DNA of 64,000 bases from Candidatus Neomarinimicrobiota bacterium (GTDB lineage: Bacteria; Fidelibacterota; Fidelibacteria; Fidelibacterales; Fidelibacteraceae), in contig JAGGVO010000012.1 in the NCBI GenBank assembly GCA_021157965.1, forward strand, positions 1 through 64,000, given 5' to 3'. Position numbers and translations under genes: made by a program. Position 1 is the stretch's first letter; every line of letters starts with the position of its first letter. This document shows positions 1 to 53,105 of this stretch, one piece after another. The notes under the pieces were generated by a model. That model ran no database searches, was not told the origin of the DNA, and saw only the letters and a program-made list of their open reading frames with translations.

Positions 1-830
<830 letters not shown>

Positions 831-46809: not shown

Positions 46810-48123
46810 ATGTTTGAAATACTGAAAAAACAAGATCCGGAATTGTTTCAAACGATAACCCGTGAAATCCGGCGACAGAACGAGACCCTCGAAATGATTG
46901 CCTCGGAAAATTTTGTCAGTCCGGCAGTCCTGGAAACAGCCGGTAACGTTATGACGAACAAATATGCCGAAGGATATCCGGGACACCGTTATTATGGCGG
47001 ATGCGAGTATGTTGATGAGGCAGAAAACCTTGCCCGGGACAGGGCGAAAAAGCTCTTTGGTGCCGATTATGCCAATGTACAGCCCCACTCCGGCAGCCAA
47101 GCCAATATGGCTGTCTATTTTACCTATTGCCAACCCGGGGACACGGTCCTTGGAATGGATTTATCCCATGGCGGTCATCTGACCCATGGAAGCCCGGTCA
47201 ATTTTTCCGGTAAACTCTACAATATTGTCAGTTATGGAGTAAAGGCAGATACCGGCCGTATAGATTACGATGATGTGGTTCGTAAAGCACGGGAACATAA
47301 ACCAAAGCTCATTATCGTAGGCGCCAGTGCCTATCCCCGGTTTTACAATTTTGCCCGTTTCCGGGAAATCGCCGATGAGGTCGGTGCCTATCTCATGGCG
47401 GATGTAGCTCATCCTGCCGGACTCATTGCCGCCGGCGTGCACCCGGATCCCATTCCCTGGTGTGATGTGGTAACTACCACAACCCATAAAACACTTCGGG
47501 GGCCCCGGGGTGGAATGATCCTTATGGGGAAAGACAAGGAAAATCCCTTCGGATTGAAAGCCGCCAAAAGCGGACGGACAAAAATGATGTCCGAAATTAT
47601 GAATTCTACCGTAATGCCTGGTATTCAGGGCGGTCCCCTTATGCATATCATTGCTGCCAAGGCTGTAGCCTTTGGTGAAGCATTAAAACCTGAATTTAAA
47701 TCGTATAGCAAACAGATTATCCAAAACACGAAAGTCCTGGCCGATTCCCTGTTAAGTCTGGATTTTAACCTTGTCTCCGGGGGATCTGATAATCACCTTG
47801 TTCTAATCGACCTGAGGAATAAGGGCATCAGCGGTAAAAAAGCAGAAAACGCTCTGGAACAGGCGGGCATTACCGTGAATAAAAATATGGTTCCTTTTGA
47901 TACCCGGAGCCCCTTTGTCACCAGCGGTATCCGTGTGGGTACACCAGCCCTGACAACCCGGGGATTTAAAGAAACTGAAATGAAGGAGATTGCCGGATTT
48001 ATCAACCGGGTGATTTCCGATCCTGATAACGAGAAAAACCTCAGGACCGTCCGAGAGGAAATTAAAGTCCTCTCAGAAAAATACCCGCTGTATCCGGAAC
48101 TTCTGAGTCGATATGTATCATGA
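46810..48123 (+). CDS. glyA: serine hydroxymethyltransferase
   Basis: This PLP enzyme converts serine and tetrahydrofolate to glycine and methylene-THF. The 437-residue protein has [38 protein letters not shown] and [14 protein letters not shown]. The PLP-Lys segment is [19 protein letters not shown]. Length is slightly above the usual 415-420. It lies between rpiB and nrdR in a tight cluster, overlapping nrdR by 4 bases. Confidence 0.98.
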
Positions 48124-48575
48124 AATGTCCCCAATGTGGCCTGCCCGATACACGGGTTATTGACAGCCGTCCTCTGACAAAAGAGATCGGCATCCGTCGC
48201 CGCAGAGAATGTCCTGCCTGCGGGTATCGTTTTACTACCTATGAATATGTCGCACTGAGCCCGGTCCTTGTCATTAAATCCAATGGTACGCGGGAAGAAT
48301 TTAACCGGGAAAAACTGATGCATAGCATTCAACTTTCCTGTACGAAACGACCTGTCTCTTTAAAGACCATTCAGAATGTTGCCCGGGAAATTGAACAAAA
48401 AATCGAACAATTGAGCCTGTCCGAAGTTAAGTCCTCCTTTATCGGTGAAGAAGTCATCCACAGACTTCGCCAAATCGATAAAGTTGCCTATATCCGTTTT
48501 GCGTCCGTCTATCATGAATTTCAGGATGTGACCGAATTCAAAGAAGAAATCAAGGTTTTGGAAGAGAATTCATGA
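48120..48575 (+). CDS. nrdR: transcriptional repressor NrdR
   Basis: NrdR represses ribonucleotide reductase genes according to ATP/dATP levels. The 151-residue protein has an N-terminal zinc ribbon ([17 protein letters not shown] and [17 protein letters not shown]) and an ATP-cone domain ([16 protein letters not shown]). It overlaps the glyA stop (ATGA), a common glyA-nrdR pairing. No terminator is seen directly after it. Confidence 0.97.
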
Positions 48576-48697
48576 CAGGCATCACGGAACCGTCAACCCC
48601 TTCTGTCGTATATAAGTAAAGATAGAGAAATGTTGACATTCTGAATCCAAGGGTATTAACTTTCAACGCAAAAATTCGAGAGGTGAGCATCAGAAAC

Positions 48698-48794
48698 GTT
48701 CGTTAAAGGATTATTTGAAAAAAGTGACCCCGACAAATATGTCCTTTGAACGAACAATCAGGCCGAGCGTGTCATTGTCGTTCGGTTTTTTTTT
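48698..48794 (+). promoter_or_regulatory. candidate attenuator leader before porV
   Basis: Three overlapping hairpins can be drawn. Arm 48698-48710 pairs with 48742-48755. Arm 48748-48757 (GAACGAACAA) pairs with 48775-48783 (TTGTCGTTC). A terminator stem CCGAGCG/CGTTCGG (48763-48769/48779-48785) is followed by nine T (48786-48794). The middle hairpin excludes both others, as in an antiterminator. The T-run ends just before the porV ribosome site GAAGGAG. What it would sense is unknown. A weak promoter candidate lies at 48633-48659. Confidence 0.5.
48763..48794 (+). terminator. intrinsic terminator immediately before porV
   Basis: The seven-pair stem CCGAGCG/CGTTCGG (one G-T pair), with a nine-base loop, is followed by nine T. 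It could end nrdR transcripts or act as the off-state of the leader described for 48698-48794. Confidence 0.75.
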
Positions 48795-48811
48795 GAAGGA
48801 GACCCAAAATT

Positions 48812-50167
48812 ATGCTGAGACGATTCATATTACTTCTCATGATTATTTTCATTGCATCCACCGGTTCGTTGATGGCTCAGGGGGATGCCGGTGCAATCTT
48901 TTTACTGATAGCTCCCGGTGCCCGGGCAGAAGCCATGGGAGAAGCCCAGGTGGCTGATGCCAGCGATGCCTATTCTTCTTACTGGAATCCGGCCGGACTG
49001 GCCTATATGGATAAAAATGAAGTGGGACTTATGTATGTAAAATGGCTCCCTAACCTGGTCGATGATATGTATTACAACTTCCTCACAACCGGCTACCGGA
49101 TTCCCGGCTTTGGCACCGTGGGTGGACATATCATCTACCTGAATTTAGGCGAACAACAACGAAGGGATGAAAACAACAATGACCTGGGAACCTTCGTATC
49201 GTATATGGCCGCCGTGACCATCTCTTTCGGGACTAAGATTTCTGAAAACCAGGCCTTCGGCGTCAATGCGAAAATTGTATATCAGATGCTGAGTCCTTAT
49301 GGAACCATTCAGGAAAAAGGAAAAGGGTCCTCCACAAGTTTTGCCTTTGATTTTGGTTATTTGTACAAAGGTCTTCTTTGGAACAAGATCGATTTTGGTA
49401 TGAATCTTTCAAACCTGGGCCCCAAGGTGGCTTTCATCGATGTTGCCCAGGCAGATCCCATGCCGACCAACATGAAACTGGGAATCAATCTGAAGGTTCT
49501 GGAAAAACAACATAATAAATTCTCGATTGTTTTCGACGTGAATAAAATGCTTGTTGCCAGTTACCAGCCGATGGACCGGAACGGAAACCTTATTATCGAT
49601 AAAAATACAAAAGAAGAAGCGTATGCCGATCCCTGGTACAAAGCCATTTTTACATCCTGGATCAACGATTGGAAGTATGAAGGCGATATCGACTATTCGG
49701 GAGATGGTGTGATTGGCGGATACGATGCCGAAGGAAAACCACAGGGTGGTTATGACGCATACGGAAATGAAGTAGTCGGTGGCGACTATGATGAAAACGG
49801 CAACCTGGCTGTCAGCTATCACCCGGATACGGGAGAAGAGATGGTGGGCTGGGGCGTTTTTGGCGGACATCCCACCAATAAGGTGATGAATAAGATTGAA
49901 GTGGGATCCGTTAATGACGGCAGTGTTCAAAACGAAATTGATCAAATGATTTTCAACATCGGTGCCGAATATGTGTATAACGGTCTGATTGCCCTGAGAG
50001 CGGGATATATTTACGATAAAGCCGGAAAAATCAACAATCCGACACTGGGTTTCGGACTCATGTACCACAATCTCGGATTCGATTTCGGATATACTGCCGG
50101 AGCCGAAAACCATCCTCTGACCAATACGATGCGTATCAGTCTCAGGTACCGCTTCGGAAAAGATTAA
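48812..50167 (+). CDS. porV: PorV/PorQ-family outer-membrane protein
   Basis: This 451-residue protein has a signal peptide ending SLMAQ and the family N-terminus IFLLIAPGARAEAMGEAQVADASDAYSSYWNPAGLAY. A 14-stranded FadL-like barrel and a C-terminal strand pair ending ISLRYRFGKD follow. PorV helps release T9SS cargo at the outer membrane. An insertion of about 115 residues (about 250-365) contains an EF-hand/dockerin-like DIDYSGDG (292-299) and three Gly-Tyr-Asp repeats. GAAGGAG precedes the ATG. The next gene encodes a T9SS-sorted protein. Confidence 0.85.
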   Translation: MLRRFILLLMIIFIASTGSLMAQGDAGAIFLLIAPGARAEAMGEAQVADASDAYSSYWNPAGLAYMDKNEVGLMYVKWLPNLVDDMYYNFLTTGYRIPGFGTVGGHIIYLNLGEQQRRDENNNDLGTFVSYMAAVTISFGTKISENQAFGVNAKIVYQMLSPYGTIQEKGKGSSTSFAFDFGYLYKGLLWNKIDFGMNLSNLGPKVAFIDVAQADPMPTNMKLGINLKVLEKQHNKFSIVFDVNKMLVASYQPMDRNGNLIIDKNTKEEAYADPWYKAIFTSWINDWKYEGDIDYSGDGVIGGYDAEGKPQGGYDAYGNEVVGGDYDENGNLAVSYHPDTGEEMVGWGVFGGHPTNKVMNKIEVGSVNDGSVQNEIDQMIFNIGAEYVYNGLIALRAGYIYDKAGKINNPTLGFGLMYHNLGFDFGYTAGAENHPLTNTMRISLRYRFGKD

Positions 50168-50174
50168 TTAAACT

Positions 50175-53105
50175 ATGAACAGGCTGCGATTATCAACGAT
50201 TGTGGCGGCGATCTTTGTCGCCACTTTTTATACAACGATCTATGCCCTTCCCACCAGAACCCCGTCACAATTTAGCCGGCCGGTGCTGGTTCCTCAGCAC
50301 TGGAATGTGATTTTAGTGGAATTTGAGGAGGATAATACACCGGTTACAACCGGAAACGGTTCCTTTCTTCAATCCTGGGATGAGAGTGATTATAGATATG
50401 CATTGGACCCGCCCCCCCATAACAAGGCTTATTTTCAATCCCACCTGAAGGCGATCAGCAATTACTGGCGCCATGTGACCAATCAAGCCCTCCGGATTGA
50501 TACAAGCGCATCTGTGATTTTACCCACCGGCGCAGAATCTATACGTCTCCCCCGGAATATCCGCTATTACCATCCGGCAGATAAACCGGACAGCGTGGAT
50601 TACCGCCTGGCAGAACTGGTTTATGAAACATTCAGAATCCTTAAAGAAAATCACGGAGAAAGTTCCCTCTTCGAAACCGTTATCCTCTTTCACGCCGGAG
50701 TGGGACAAGATTTCGACTTTTCCAACATGTATGACCCCACCCCTTTTGATATCCCTTCCTTCTATTTTGATGAAACATTTCTCTCTGAATACCTCAGTCC
50801 CGAAGCAGTTGCACTGATACAATCCCTGGGTGTCAAACAGGGAATCGTTCTGCCGGAAATGCAAAATCAACTGAAACTCAATGTGGCTCTGAACGGGACA
50901 GCTCTCCTTATGTCAGGTTTTCTCCTTGGTCTCCCTCCTCTTTATAATACAGAGACAGGCAAATCGGGAACGGGTATCTTTGGGTTTATGGATCAGGGAT
51001 CCAATAATGCAAACGGACTCCTCCCCATTGGCCTTTCTGCTTTCGAGCGAATCATCATGGGTATCCAATCGCCACAAACGGCAGAACATGCAAACCGCTA
51101 CTCCCTGCTTCCGGGAGAAATCCTGAAAATCCCTGTCAGCAGCCGGGAATACTTCCTTGTTGAATATCGTAAAAATGCCGGAATCCGCCTGGATTCCCTT
51201 TATCAAAATCATTTGGATGATATCCTGCCGGATTCGGAACGCTACGAAACCTATCTGGATGCCCTGGAAAAAGTCAGAGACATGGGACTTGCAGATTACT
51301 CGCTGAATCCTTCTACGGGCGTGCTGGAATCCGTTGAAAACTACGATATCACTCTACCTGCTTCCGGTTTGCTTATCTGGCATGTCTATGACCCTGATAA
51401 AGCTCTCTTTGAGTACCCGGAAAATCCCAACGGCCAGGCAATTCCCATGGTTCGCCTGGAAGAGGCAGACGGCGCCTACGATATCGGGAAAAATTACGGT
51501 CCCCTGAGCGGCTCGGTAAACCAAGGCTGGAAATGGGATATGTGGTTTTCGAAAAACATGGGATTTCTGGATAACAATTCCCATATCTACAATATTAAGA
51601 ATATTGAATTTTCCGACAGGACCCATCCCGATACCCGGAGTTTTTCCGGCATTGAAACCGGAATACGGTTGAAACAATTCACTTTTACGGCAGATTCAGC
51701 CTCCTTCACACTGGACTTCCTCAAAGAACGCCCGGAACAATTCGTTGGATTTGAAGCCCTGGGAACATGGGATTTTCACAACACAGAAACACACATCCCT
51801 TACGGATTGCGGGAAAACCATCTGGTCTGCCTGGAGGATACGGGTTTTGTCTCCCTTGCGGATTTAAGCCCACTCTCTGCCCGGGCCGAAAACACGGCGA
51901 TTCTCCCCTATGAAAACAAACTCATCGTTATCCACACACAAAATGCCCAAAGTGTCGTCAGACAGTATGATATCCTGGACAATCCATTACGAGCTGTTCT
52001 CACCACTTCCCGTTCTCTTTCGTATGCACTCAGAATTGGTTCTCTTTTGCTGTATGATAATACACTTTTTCTTCCTCACGGCGACTCAGACAATTCTGCA
52101 TTCAGTTTTTATCATCTGGACCGGGATTTTCTATCCGGACCCTTTTCAACCGTTACCGATATAGGCGGAACCGTTGTATATAACCATTCTCTCCTGGTGA
52201 GTTCCGGTAAATTCCTGCATTATCCCGATAAAGGCCAAGTGGAACAATTGTCTTTTACCATAGGAAGCATGGTCTCATACTCAGACACACTGATTGTAAC
52301 AGATTCGGATCATGGAGGATTTTATTTTTATGACGTTTCTGAAGGAAGGCTGATCAATTCCCGGGGATATCAGCAGGATCTAATCATTGACGAGATCATC
52401 CCCCTGGATCTGCCCGAAACCCGGGGACCGGATTTTCTACTTCTGGGAACAAGCGGAACGGAGAAATATTTGATCCTGACAGACAGTGACGGTCACCCCT
52501 GGAATGGTTTTCCTGTCAGGAATAACTACGATGCTATACGTGTCTATTTTGATAGGAACGAGCTCCGGATCATCGCTTTAAAACCTGACGGACGGATAGA
52601 TATTTTTGATAAAACAGGTACACGACTTACATCTTATACAATCACCCCAAAACCTTTCTCCTTTTTCCTGACCCATCATAGACAGGGTTTAGCCCTTTTT
52701 TCTGAGGGCGACCGCCTGCTGTTGGAGGGAGATTCTCTGCACTGGGCATATCCCAACGGAGACCTGTGGAGTACCCGTCATATCCGGATAAATACAACAA
52801 CACCGGATTATCCCAGGGGGATGTTAATAGCCAAAGACCTGATTTATAACTATCCAAATCCTGTTTCGGATGAAAAAACCTGCTTCCGGTATTTTGCCGT
52901 CGAAGCAGAATTTGTGGATATTAAGATCTACGATTTACAGGGTAAATTTGTGGAACATCTGCAACAAACCCCCATTCAACAGCAGTGGAATGAAATCCCG
53001 TGGGATATTCGTTCACTCGATTCGGGTGTGTACATTGCAAAAATTACAATCAACGGATCCGGAAGTGAAAAAACCTTTATCATTAAACCGGCGATACTTA
53101 AATAA
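50175..53105 (+). CDS. T9SS-sorted M6-peptidase-like protein without zinc motif
   Basis: This 976-residue protein has a signal peptide (about 1-24). An M6-like domain follows, then a beta-propeller-like region (about 520-850) and a C-terminal type A sorting domain (NYPNPVSDEK ... IYDLQGKFVEHL ... SGVYIAKI). M6 context is clear in GLPPLYNTETGKSGTGIFGFMDQGS and PIGLSAFERIIMG. The HExGH site reads LMSGF (245-249), so zinc cannot bind in the normal way. It is probably a secreted, surface-anchored pseudoprotease. It starts 7 bases after porV. Confidence 0.8.
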   Translation: MNRLRLSTIVAAIFVATFYTTIYALPTRTPSQFSRPVLVPQHWNVILVEFEEDNTPVTTGNGSFLQSWDESDYRYALDPPPHNKAYFQSHLKAISNYWRHVTNQALRIDTSASVILPTGAESIRLPRNIRYYHPADKPDSVDYRLAELVYETFRILKENHGESSLFETVILFHAGVGQDFDFSNMYDPTPFDIPSFYFDETFLSEYLSPEAVALIQSLGVKQGIVLPEMQNQLKLNVALNGTALLMSGFLLGLPPLYNTETGKSGTGIFGFMDQGSNNANGLLPIGLSAFERIIMGIQSPQTAEHANRYSLLPGEILKIPVSSREYFLVEYRKNAGIRLDSLYQNHLDDILPDSERYETYLDALEKVRDMGLADYSLNPSTGVLESVENYDITLPASGLLIWHVYDPDKALFEYPENPNGQAIPMVRLEEADGAYDIGKNYGPLSGSVNQGWKWDMWFSKNMGFLDNNSHIYNIKNIEFSDRTHPDTRSFSGIETGIRLKQFTFTADSASFTLDFLKERPEQFVGFEALGTWDFHNTETHIPYGLRENHLVCLEDTGFVSLADLSPLSARAENTAILPYENKLIVIHTQNAQSVVRQYDILDNPLRAVLTTSRSLSYALRIGSLLLYDNTLFLPHGDSDNSAFSFYHLDRDFLSGPFSTVTDIGGTVVYNHSLLVSSGKFLHYPDKGQVEQLSFTIGSMVSYSDTLIVTDSDHGGFYFYDVSEGRLINSRGYQQDLIIDEIIPLDLPETRGPDFLLLGTSGTEKYLILTDSDGHPWNGFPVRNNYDAIRVYFDRNELRIIALKPDGRIDIFDKTGTRLTSYTITPKPFSFFLTHHRQGLALFSEGDRLLLEGDSLHWAYPNGDLWSTRHIRINTTTPDYPRGMLIAKDLIYNYPNPVSDEKTCFRYFAVEAEFVDIKIYDLQGKFVEHLQQTPIQQQWNEIPWDIRSLDSGVYIAKITINGSGSEKTFIIKPAILK

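Follow-up and report, generated by a model that had tools for sequence, protein, structure and literature searches.

The porV gene of a Ca. Marinimicrobia genome is preceded by an intrinsic terminator that ends directly at its ribosome binding site, which raises the question of how this gene is transcribed and what might control it. We analysed the 236-base gap between nrdR and porV (48575 to 48812) in a window of 64,000 nucleotides (C12:1-64000 of the genome) and compared it with the leaders of related genomes. Our answer is that the porV leader is probably a cis-acting transcription attenuator, OFF by default and induced to the ON state.

Anatomy of the porV leader

The features of the locus, all on the forward strand, are as follows.

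48120..48575, +, nrdR, the upstream gene (TIGR00244, E 3.1e-53)
48633..48661, +, putative porV promoter, TTGACA (48633-48638) with a -10-like TATTAA/TTAACT (48654-48661), by eye
48678..48705, +, 5' element: SD-like GAGAGG (48678-48683), AUC-bearing spacer and CGUUA (48701-48705)
48698..48755, +, hairpin P1, arms 48698-48717 and 48734-48755 (fold, covariation, permutation)
48746..48784, +, antiterminator pairing, 48746-48758 with 48773-48784 (duplex energy, blocked-arm fold, permutation)
48760..48794, +, intrinsic terminator, stem 48760-48769/48779-48788, T-run 48786-48794 (fold)
48795..48801, +, porV Shine-Dalgarno (SD) sequence GAAGGAG (sequence)
48812..50167, +, porV (PorV/PorQ family), ATG at 48812 (PF19572, E 8.4e-31)

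The porV product scored 273.9 bits against the NCBIfam PorV_fam model (cut-off 90) and 210 bits against the PorV equivalog, which is under the cut-off of 250. The gene after porV (50175-53105) bears a type IX secretion C-terminal sorting domain (PF18962).

A sequence-only reading had proposed three overlapping pairings in this gap with the logic of a riboswitch or attenuator, and all three are present by sequence and fold energies. The upstream hairpin, read as 48698-48710/48742-48755, is longer than claimed: P1 has 20 pairs (-18.3 kcal/mol for 48690-48757), and its 5' arm is part of the 5' element. The middle hairpin, placed at 48748-48757/48775-48783, extends to the full antiterminator span with one bulge and a duplex energy of -10.5; its strand 48746-48758 is common to P1 and the antiterminator, and the pairing competes with both P1 and the terminator. 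The T-tailed terminator, whose stem had been placed at 48763-48785, has a stem of -12.5 kcal/mol and a loop of 9, and its T-run adjoins the porV SD sequence directly (48794 to 48795), as proposed. When the window leader was folded freely, P1 and the terminator formed together (-37.2). Holding 48676-48712 open gave the antiterminator, without the terminator, as the minimum-energy fold (-21.2).

Since the terminator abuts the porV SD sequence, any porV promoter must lie upstream of the terminator. The putative -35 sequence TTGACA is followed by TATTAA 15 nt and TTAACT 17 nt downstream, and TTGACA-N17 recurs at the equivalent position in genera g1, g2 and g3. This conserved TTGACA places the transcription start before the terminator, so that porV transcripts should contain it. 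A generic scan of this strand called neither the terminator of the porV leader nor a sigma-70 promoter; the terminator was passed over because the scan has a loop limit of 8 and the loop here is 9. As a single sequence the leader folds only modestly better than expected (z = -2.18, with 7 of 200 shuffles folding equally well), and therefore the weight rests on the comparison with relatives. An Rfam search of the leader at the gathering score gave no match and a permissive scan gave two chance-level matches, which ruled out a known RNA class and agreed with the earlier view that none is recognised.

Conservation across Ca. Marinimicrobia

Relatives of porV were found in 197 of the 199 genomes searched. 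A total of 130 upstream regions were read, and the start codon was placed in 122. Three regions were kept that gave no start or element (L120, from the wrong side of the gene; L122, mostly N; L108, cut short), and the element position was set by hand in 8 leaders. Tests by genus used the first leader per genus, and the statistics ignore kinship. A terminator precedes the porV SD sequence in 46 of the 122 leaders, one of which (L061) is probably spurious and was left out of the pairing permutation test (no room). By family, it is present in 15/17 leaders of f1, 8/8 of f5, 5/5 of f16 and 6/8 of f9, with 0/27 in f12 and 0/7 in f18. In f8, the porV terminator seems decayed in L088, where the U-run is broken, and intact in L089.

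Both competing pairings were conserved more strongly than exchanged partners would be. Across 25 genera, kinship ignored, the pairing energies of the own P1 arms summed to -314.6 vs -213.8 for permuted partners, and those of the antiterminator to -282.5 vs -231.2; in each case none of 5000 between-genus permutations did as well. The two pairings share a strand in 19 of the 25 genera, and P1 is weak in f9, f13 and f14. Several alignments were built, with A2 taking 13 of the 16 leaders of A1, A3 taking 29 of 48 and A4 taking 9 of 10. Alignment A6 contains 25 rows from f1 porV, uppP and a few other leaders, including two spurious partial rows (second matches, L003 and L009). Over P1 and the terminator, 32 cells of A6 are altered on both sides in 8 of 15 pairs, and the covariation score is 0.280 vs 0.148 for shuffled alignments (0/500 reached it), although the fitting of A5 and A6 to their own models tilts these counts toward the structure. 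The middle pairing covaries within the window's own genus as well, where L005 has AUAAG/CUUA and the window ACAAU/AUUGU, the antiterminator of L005 being the weaker. Compensatory changes in related leaders, together with the conserved promoter-like sequence upstream of the terminator, thus support the attenuator logic first read from the window.

The blocking test was repeated on 45 terminator-bearing leaders with a fall in P(terminator) of > 0.3 as the criterion. Blocking the P1 arm had this effect in 12 of 14 f1g1/f1g2 leaders (g1 4/5, g2 8/9), whereas blocking the P1 loop as a control did so in 2 of 14. The terminator also melted in f16g27, f16g49 and f5g7. No terminator melted in the f5g12, f9, f11, f13, f14 and f1g3 leaders, f6 responded in the opposite direction, and L005 kept its terminator under the block (0.98). 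In these folding models the full three-way switch appears to have good support close to the window and in two further families, but not throughout, because blocking melts the terminator in only 5 of 25 genera (first leader each; 1 of 24 with the P1-loop control).

The 5' element, GGAG-N(about 15)-YGYUAA, is shared across the phylum and lies just 3' of the promoter in the porV leaders of most families. It has a short, seemingly single-stranded core with nearly fixed spacing. Of 61 genus representatives, 37 contain the fixed pattern of GGAG or GAGG, then 11-17 bases, then YGYTA, while shuffled leaders gave a mean of 1.24 and a maximum of 5 over 300 rounds; in the f10, f17, f23 and f27 leaders no convincing element was found. 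Genomes G158 (L044, L116) and G153 (L045, L162) each have two porV copies, every copy with its own element.

Where a family has no terminator, its element can often pair with porV codons 2-5, always in the same register. A permutation test over all grouped non-terminator families (f12, f18-f22, f24-f26, f28 and f29; 29 genera, kinship ignored) gave 0 of 3000 permutations as good. Among 33 distinct rows, whose families were picked after seeing the pairing so that the counts are descriptive and no test of it, standard pairs are formed in 30 to 33 rows at four central positions, with one of these positions swapping between C-G (18 rows) and U-A (11 rows). One position further out, 27 of the 33 rows are paired (A-U in 16, U-A in 10). 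Some of the bases that partner the element fall at synonymous positions of Lys-Arg codons. In f12g20, g29, g33, g56, f19, f25, f26 and f28 the start pairing is missing or covers little.

Other target genes of the element

Three models were used to search for further copies of the leader. R1, a sequence model of the promoter and element, found 55 sites in the 199 genomes with E of 3.2e-5 or lower, of which 53 belong to porV or a second porV copy and 2 are exopolysaccharide leaders. R2, the f1 model, matched porV leaders and also a leader copy before uppP/bacA (undecaprenyl-diphosphatase) in 3 of the 4 g2 genomes searched (L181, L182 and L183 in G006, G012 and G010); P1, the terminator and the antiterminator were recognised there by eye and the gene by PF02673. 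R3, the exopolysaccharide-leader model, gave 25 places in 24 of the 199 genomes and 10 genera, including its 9 building leaders. In all 24 readable R3 leaders (L198 unread) the next ORF lies 73-147 bases downstream and resembles an exopolysaccharide sugar transferase or a polysaccharide export protein; one of each was identified by Pfam/NCBIfam and the rest were judged by N-terminal likeness.

P1 of the exopolysaccharide leaders covaries (0.189 vs 0.110 shuffled, 0/500). L155-L161, L165, L166, L170 and L191-L215 carry the element and a strong P1, several with a conserved UGUGAUCCAGCACA, and by eye the 3' arm of P1 often runs into the beginning of a small ORF (about 10-30 codons). A pattern that includes this 3' arm matched 5 exopolysaccharide leaders only. 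With an early pattern, 17 of 35 matches were porV leaders and the rest were chance-like, and a reversed-pattern control scored about as high. The idea that the element belongs to porV only was overturned by the later models, which matched uppP and exopolysaccharide genes. In the window genome, R2 found the porV copy and one chance-like match, and R3 found no match. The chance-like R2 match, G000:C28 (E 0.16), was rejected as a target, since it is apparently an intergenic terminator matched by chance.

Proposed mechanism, rival explanations and known systems

We infer the direction of control, and the occupancy of the 5' element, as follows. In the OFF state, the emerging element (GAGG...CGUUAAAGGA) would fold onto 48734-48755 to give P1, the middle strand would be consumed, and the terminator would form and halt transcription before the porV ribosome site. 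In the ON state, an occupied element would block P1, and the freed middle strand would pair with the terminator strand, allowing RNA polymerase to read into porV. One sensor element would serve the phylum with a varying output: the terminator, clear in f1, f16 and f5g7, or the pairing with porV codons 2-5, in f12 in part and in f18, f20, f21, f22, f24 and f29. The trigger is the weakest step of this proposal. We weakly favour a 30S subunit that would be caught by the SD-like GGAG, cover YGYUAA and prevent P1, in which case the leader would report ribosome supply or transcription-translation coupling. True start codons 3-9 bases after GGAG are rarer than expected (3 vs 13 expected, 59 genera), and we therefore read GGAG as an SD-like site that may bind 30S without ordinary initiation.

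The rival explanations concern either the structure or the trigger. The locus could be an ordinary nrdR-operon terminator beside an unrelated hairpin, with the middle pairing a chance product of shared CGTTCG-like words; the position of the terminator after nrdR and the modest single-sequence fold would agree with this. However, the terminator abuts the porV SD sequence and leaves the porV promoter upstream, the promoter and leader stay with porV while the sequence further upstream differs between families, and the middle pairing is kept with differing sequences, which makes this explanation very unlikely. A trans-acting RNA or RNA-binding protein on the 5' element is possible, though not likely: the short conserved sequence, single-stranded and almost constant in its spacing, would suit it, but the GGAG spacing fits a ribosome as well. 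The ribosome could also act through a leader peptide, with GGAG as the SD sequence of a mini-ORF that begins at AUC, AUA or AUU and ends in Arg-stop (CGY UAA), where a stalled ribosome would block P1. Indeed, the codon at SD+3..9 is AUA in 27, AUC in 18, AUU in 9 and AUG in 0 of 54 genera, an in-frame stop follows within 7 codons in 40 of the 54 compared with 35 (inflated by ATAG/ATAA overlaps) and 21 in the other frames, and family f26 reads AUG ACA UAU CGC UAA. Yet 13 genera have no AU there, some exopolysaccharide leaders have no stop (CGUUAU in L199 and L212-L214), the frame is lost in L208 and L210, and near-cognate starts are weak, so we consider a leader peptide unlikely. As a universal feature, the non-AUG mini-ORF was rejected: it fits most porV leaders, is broken in several exopolysaccharide leaders and is absent in f5g12, f18 and f8.

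The set of target genes bears on two further rivals. The leader would be a metabolite riboswitch if the 5' element and P1 together made up a small aptamer, whose ligand might be an envelope precursor; riboswitches typically join one conserved sensor to outputs that vary and to a coherent set of genes, here those of the envelope, and the other targets include uppP and undecaprenyl-phosphate sugar transferases. Against it, the conserved core is short, looks single-stranded, has no conserved multi-helix pocket and matches no Rfam class, and we regard an aptamer as unlikely. Processive antitermination by a NusG paralog of the RfaH/UpxY/LoaP type, recruited by the element, would suit the exopolysaccharide operons among the targets and the two NusG-domain proteins of the window genome, and LoaP uses a leader RNA hairpin (PMC12691694). 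But f16, f18, f3 and f5g12 have the element and one NusG (e.g. G054, G080, G066 and G020), f10, f17 and f23 have two NusG and no recognisable element, and the start-codon pairing is left unexplained, so that this mechanism is highly improbable. NusG-paralog recruitment as a general mechanism was rejected, as the paralogs do not track the element across families. One NusG-domain protein is encoded at G000:C12:126193-126459, outside the window, and across the phylum such proteins number mostly 1 or 2 per genome, varying by family.

Beyond the attenuator itself, a wider reading is conceivable but doubtful, in which a regulon spanning the phylum Ca. Marinimicrobia (Fidelibacterota) would use the SD-like element to read free 30S or a cell-wall signal and would co-ordinate porV, undecaprenyl recycling (uppP) and exopolysaccharide assembly. 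Its outputs would be interchangeable, namely a terminator, a start-codon mask and a small-ORF mask. A cultured member of the phylum relies on outside muropeptides (PMC11652737), and therefore muropeptide or undecaprenyl status is a possible signal.

The attenuator that we favour resembles classical attenuators and riboswitches in its three overlapping pairings with a terminator right before the gene, and in an output that shifts between transcription and translation among relatives. Unlike them, its sensor is an SD-like element with YGYUAA, not a folded aptamer or a known leader peptide, and the family has no Rfam match and targets porV, uppP and exopolysaccharide genes. A ribosome standby site has SD-like sequence free of structure, lying ahead of a folded start region. 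The porV leader shares this arrangement, but its site also supplies the P1-closing strand and in some families controls a terminator. RfaH/ops and JUMPstart are known for a conserved leader element before polysaccharide operons (PMC12691694). The Marinimicrobia element likewise stands ahead of polysaccharide genes, although no ops-like sequence was noticed by eye and RNA pairing is conserved here with compensatory changes. LoaP, a specialised NusG, also has a leader hairpin followed by an intrinsic terminator (PMC12691694), whereas the porV-leader element has no consistent co-occurrence with NusG paralogs and its hairpin is one partner in a strand exchange.

A search of the open-licence literature found nothing on these leaders. 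They appear to be a new family of a known kind, attenuator- or riboswitch-like leaders, and the sequence comparison suggests that the porV leader belongs to undescribed RNA controls on envelope-building genes. A little-studied phylum would then possess a family of regulatory leader RNAs that had not been described, with an envelope regulon that is coherent and a sensor that does not resemble a folded aptamer, and the exchange of outputs on one sensor would offer a natural series for RNA-switch evolution. The leader is probably present in the cultured Fidelibacter multiformis IA91, which is likely a member of the window's own genus and would make the leader testable.
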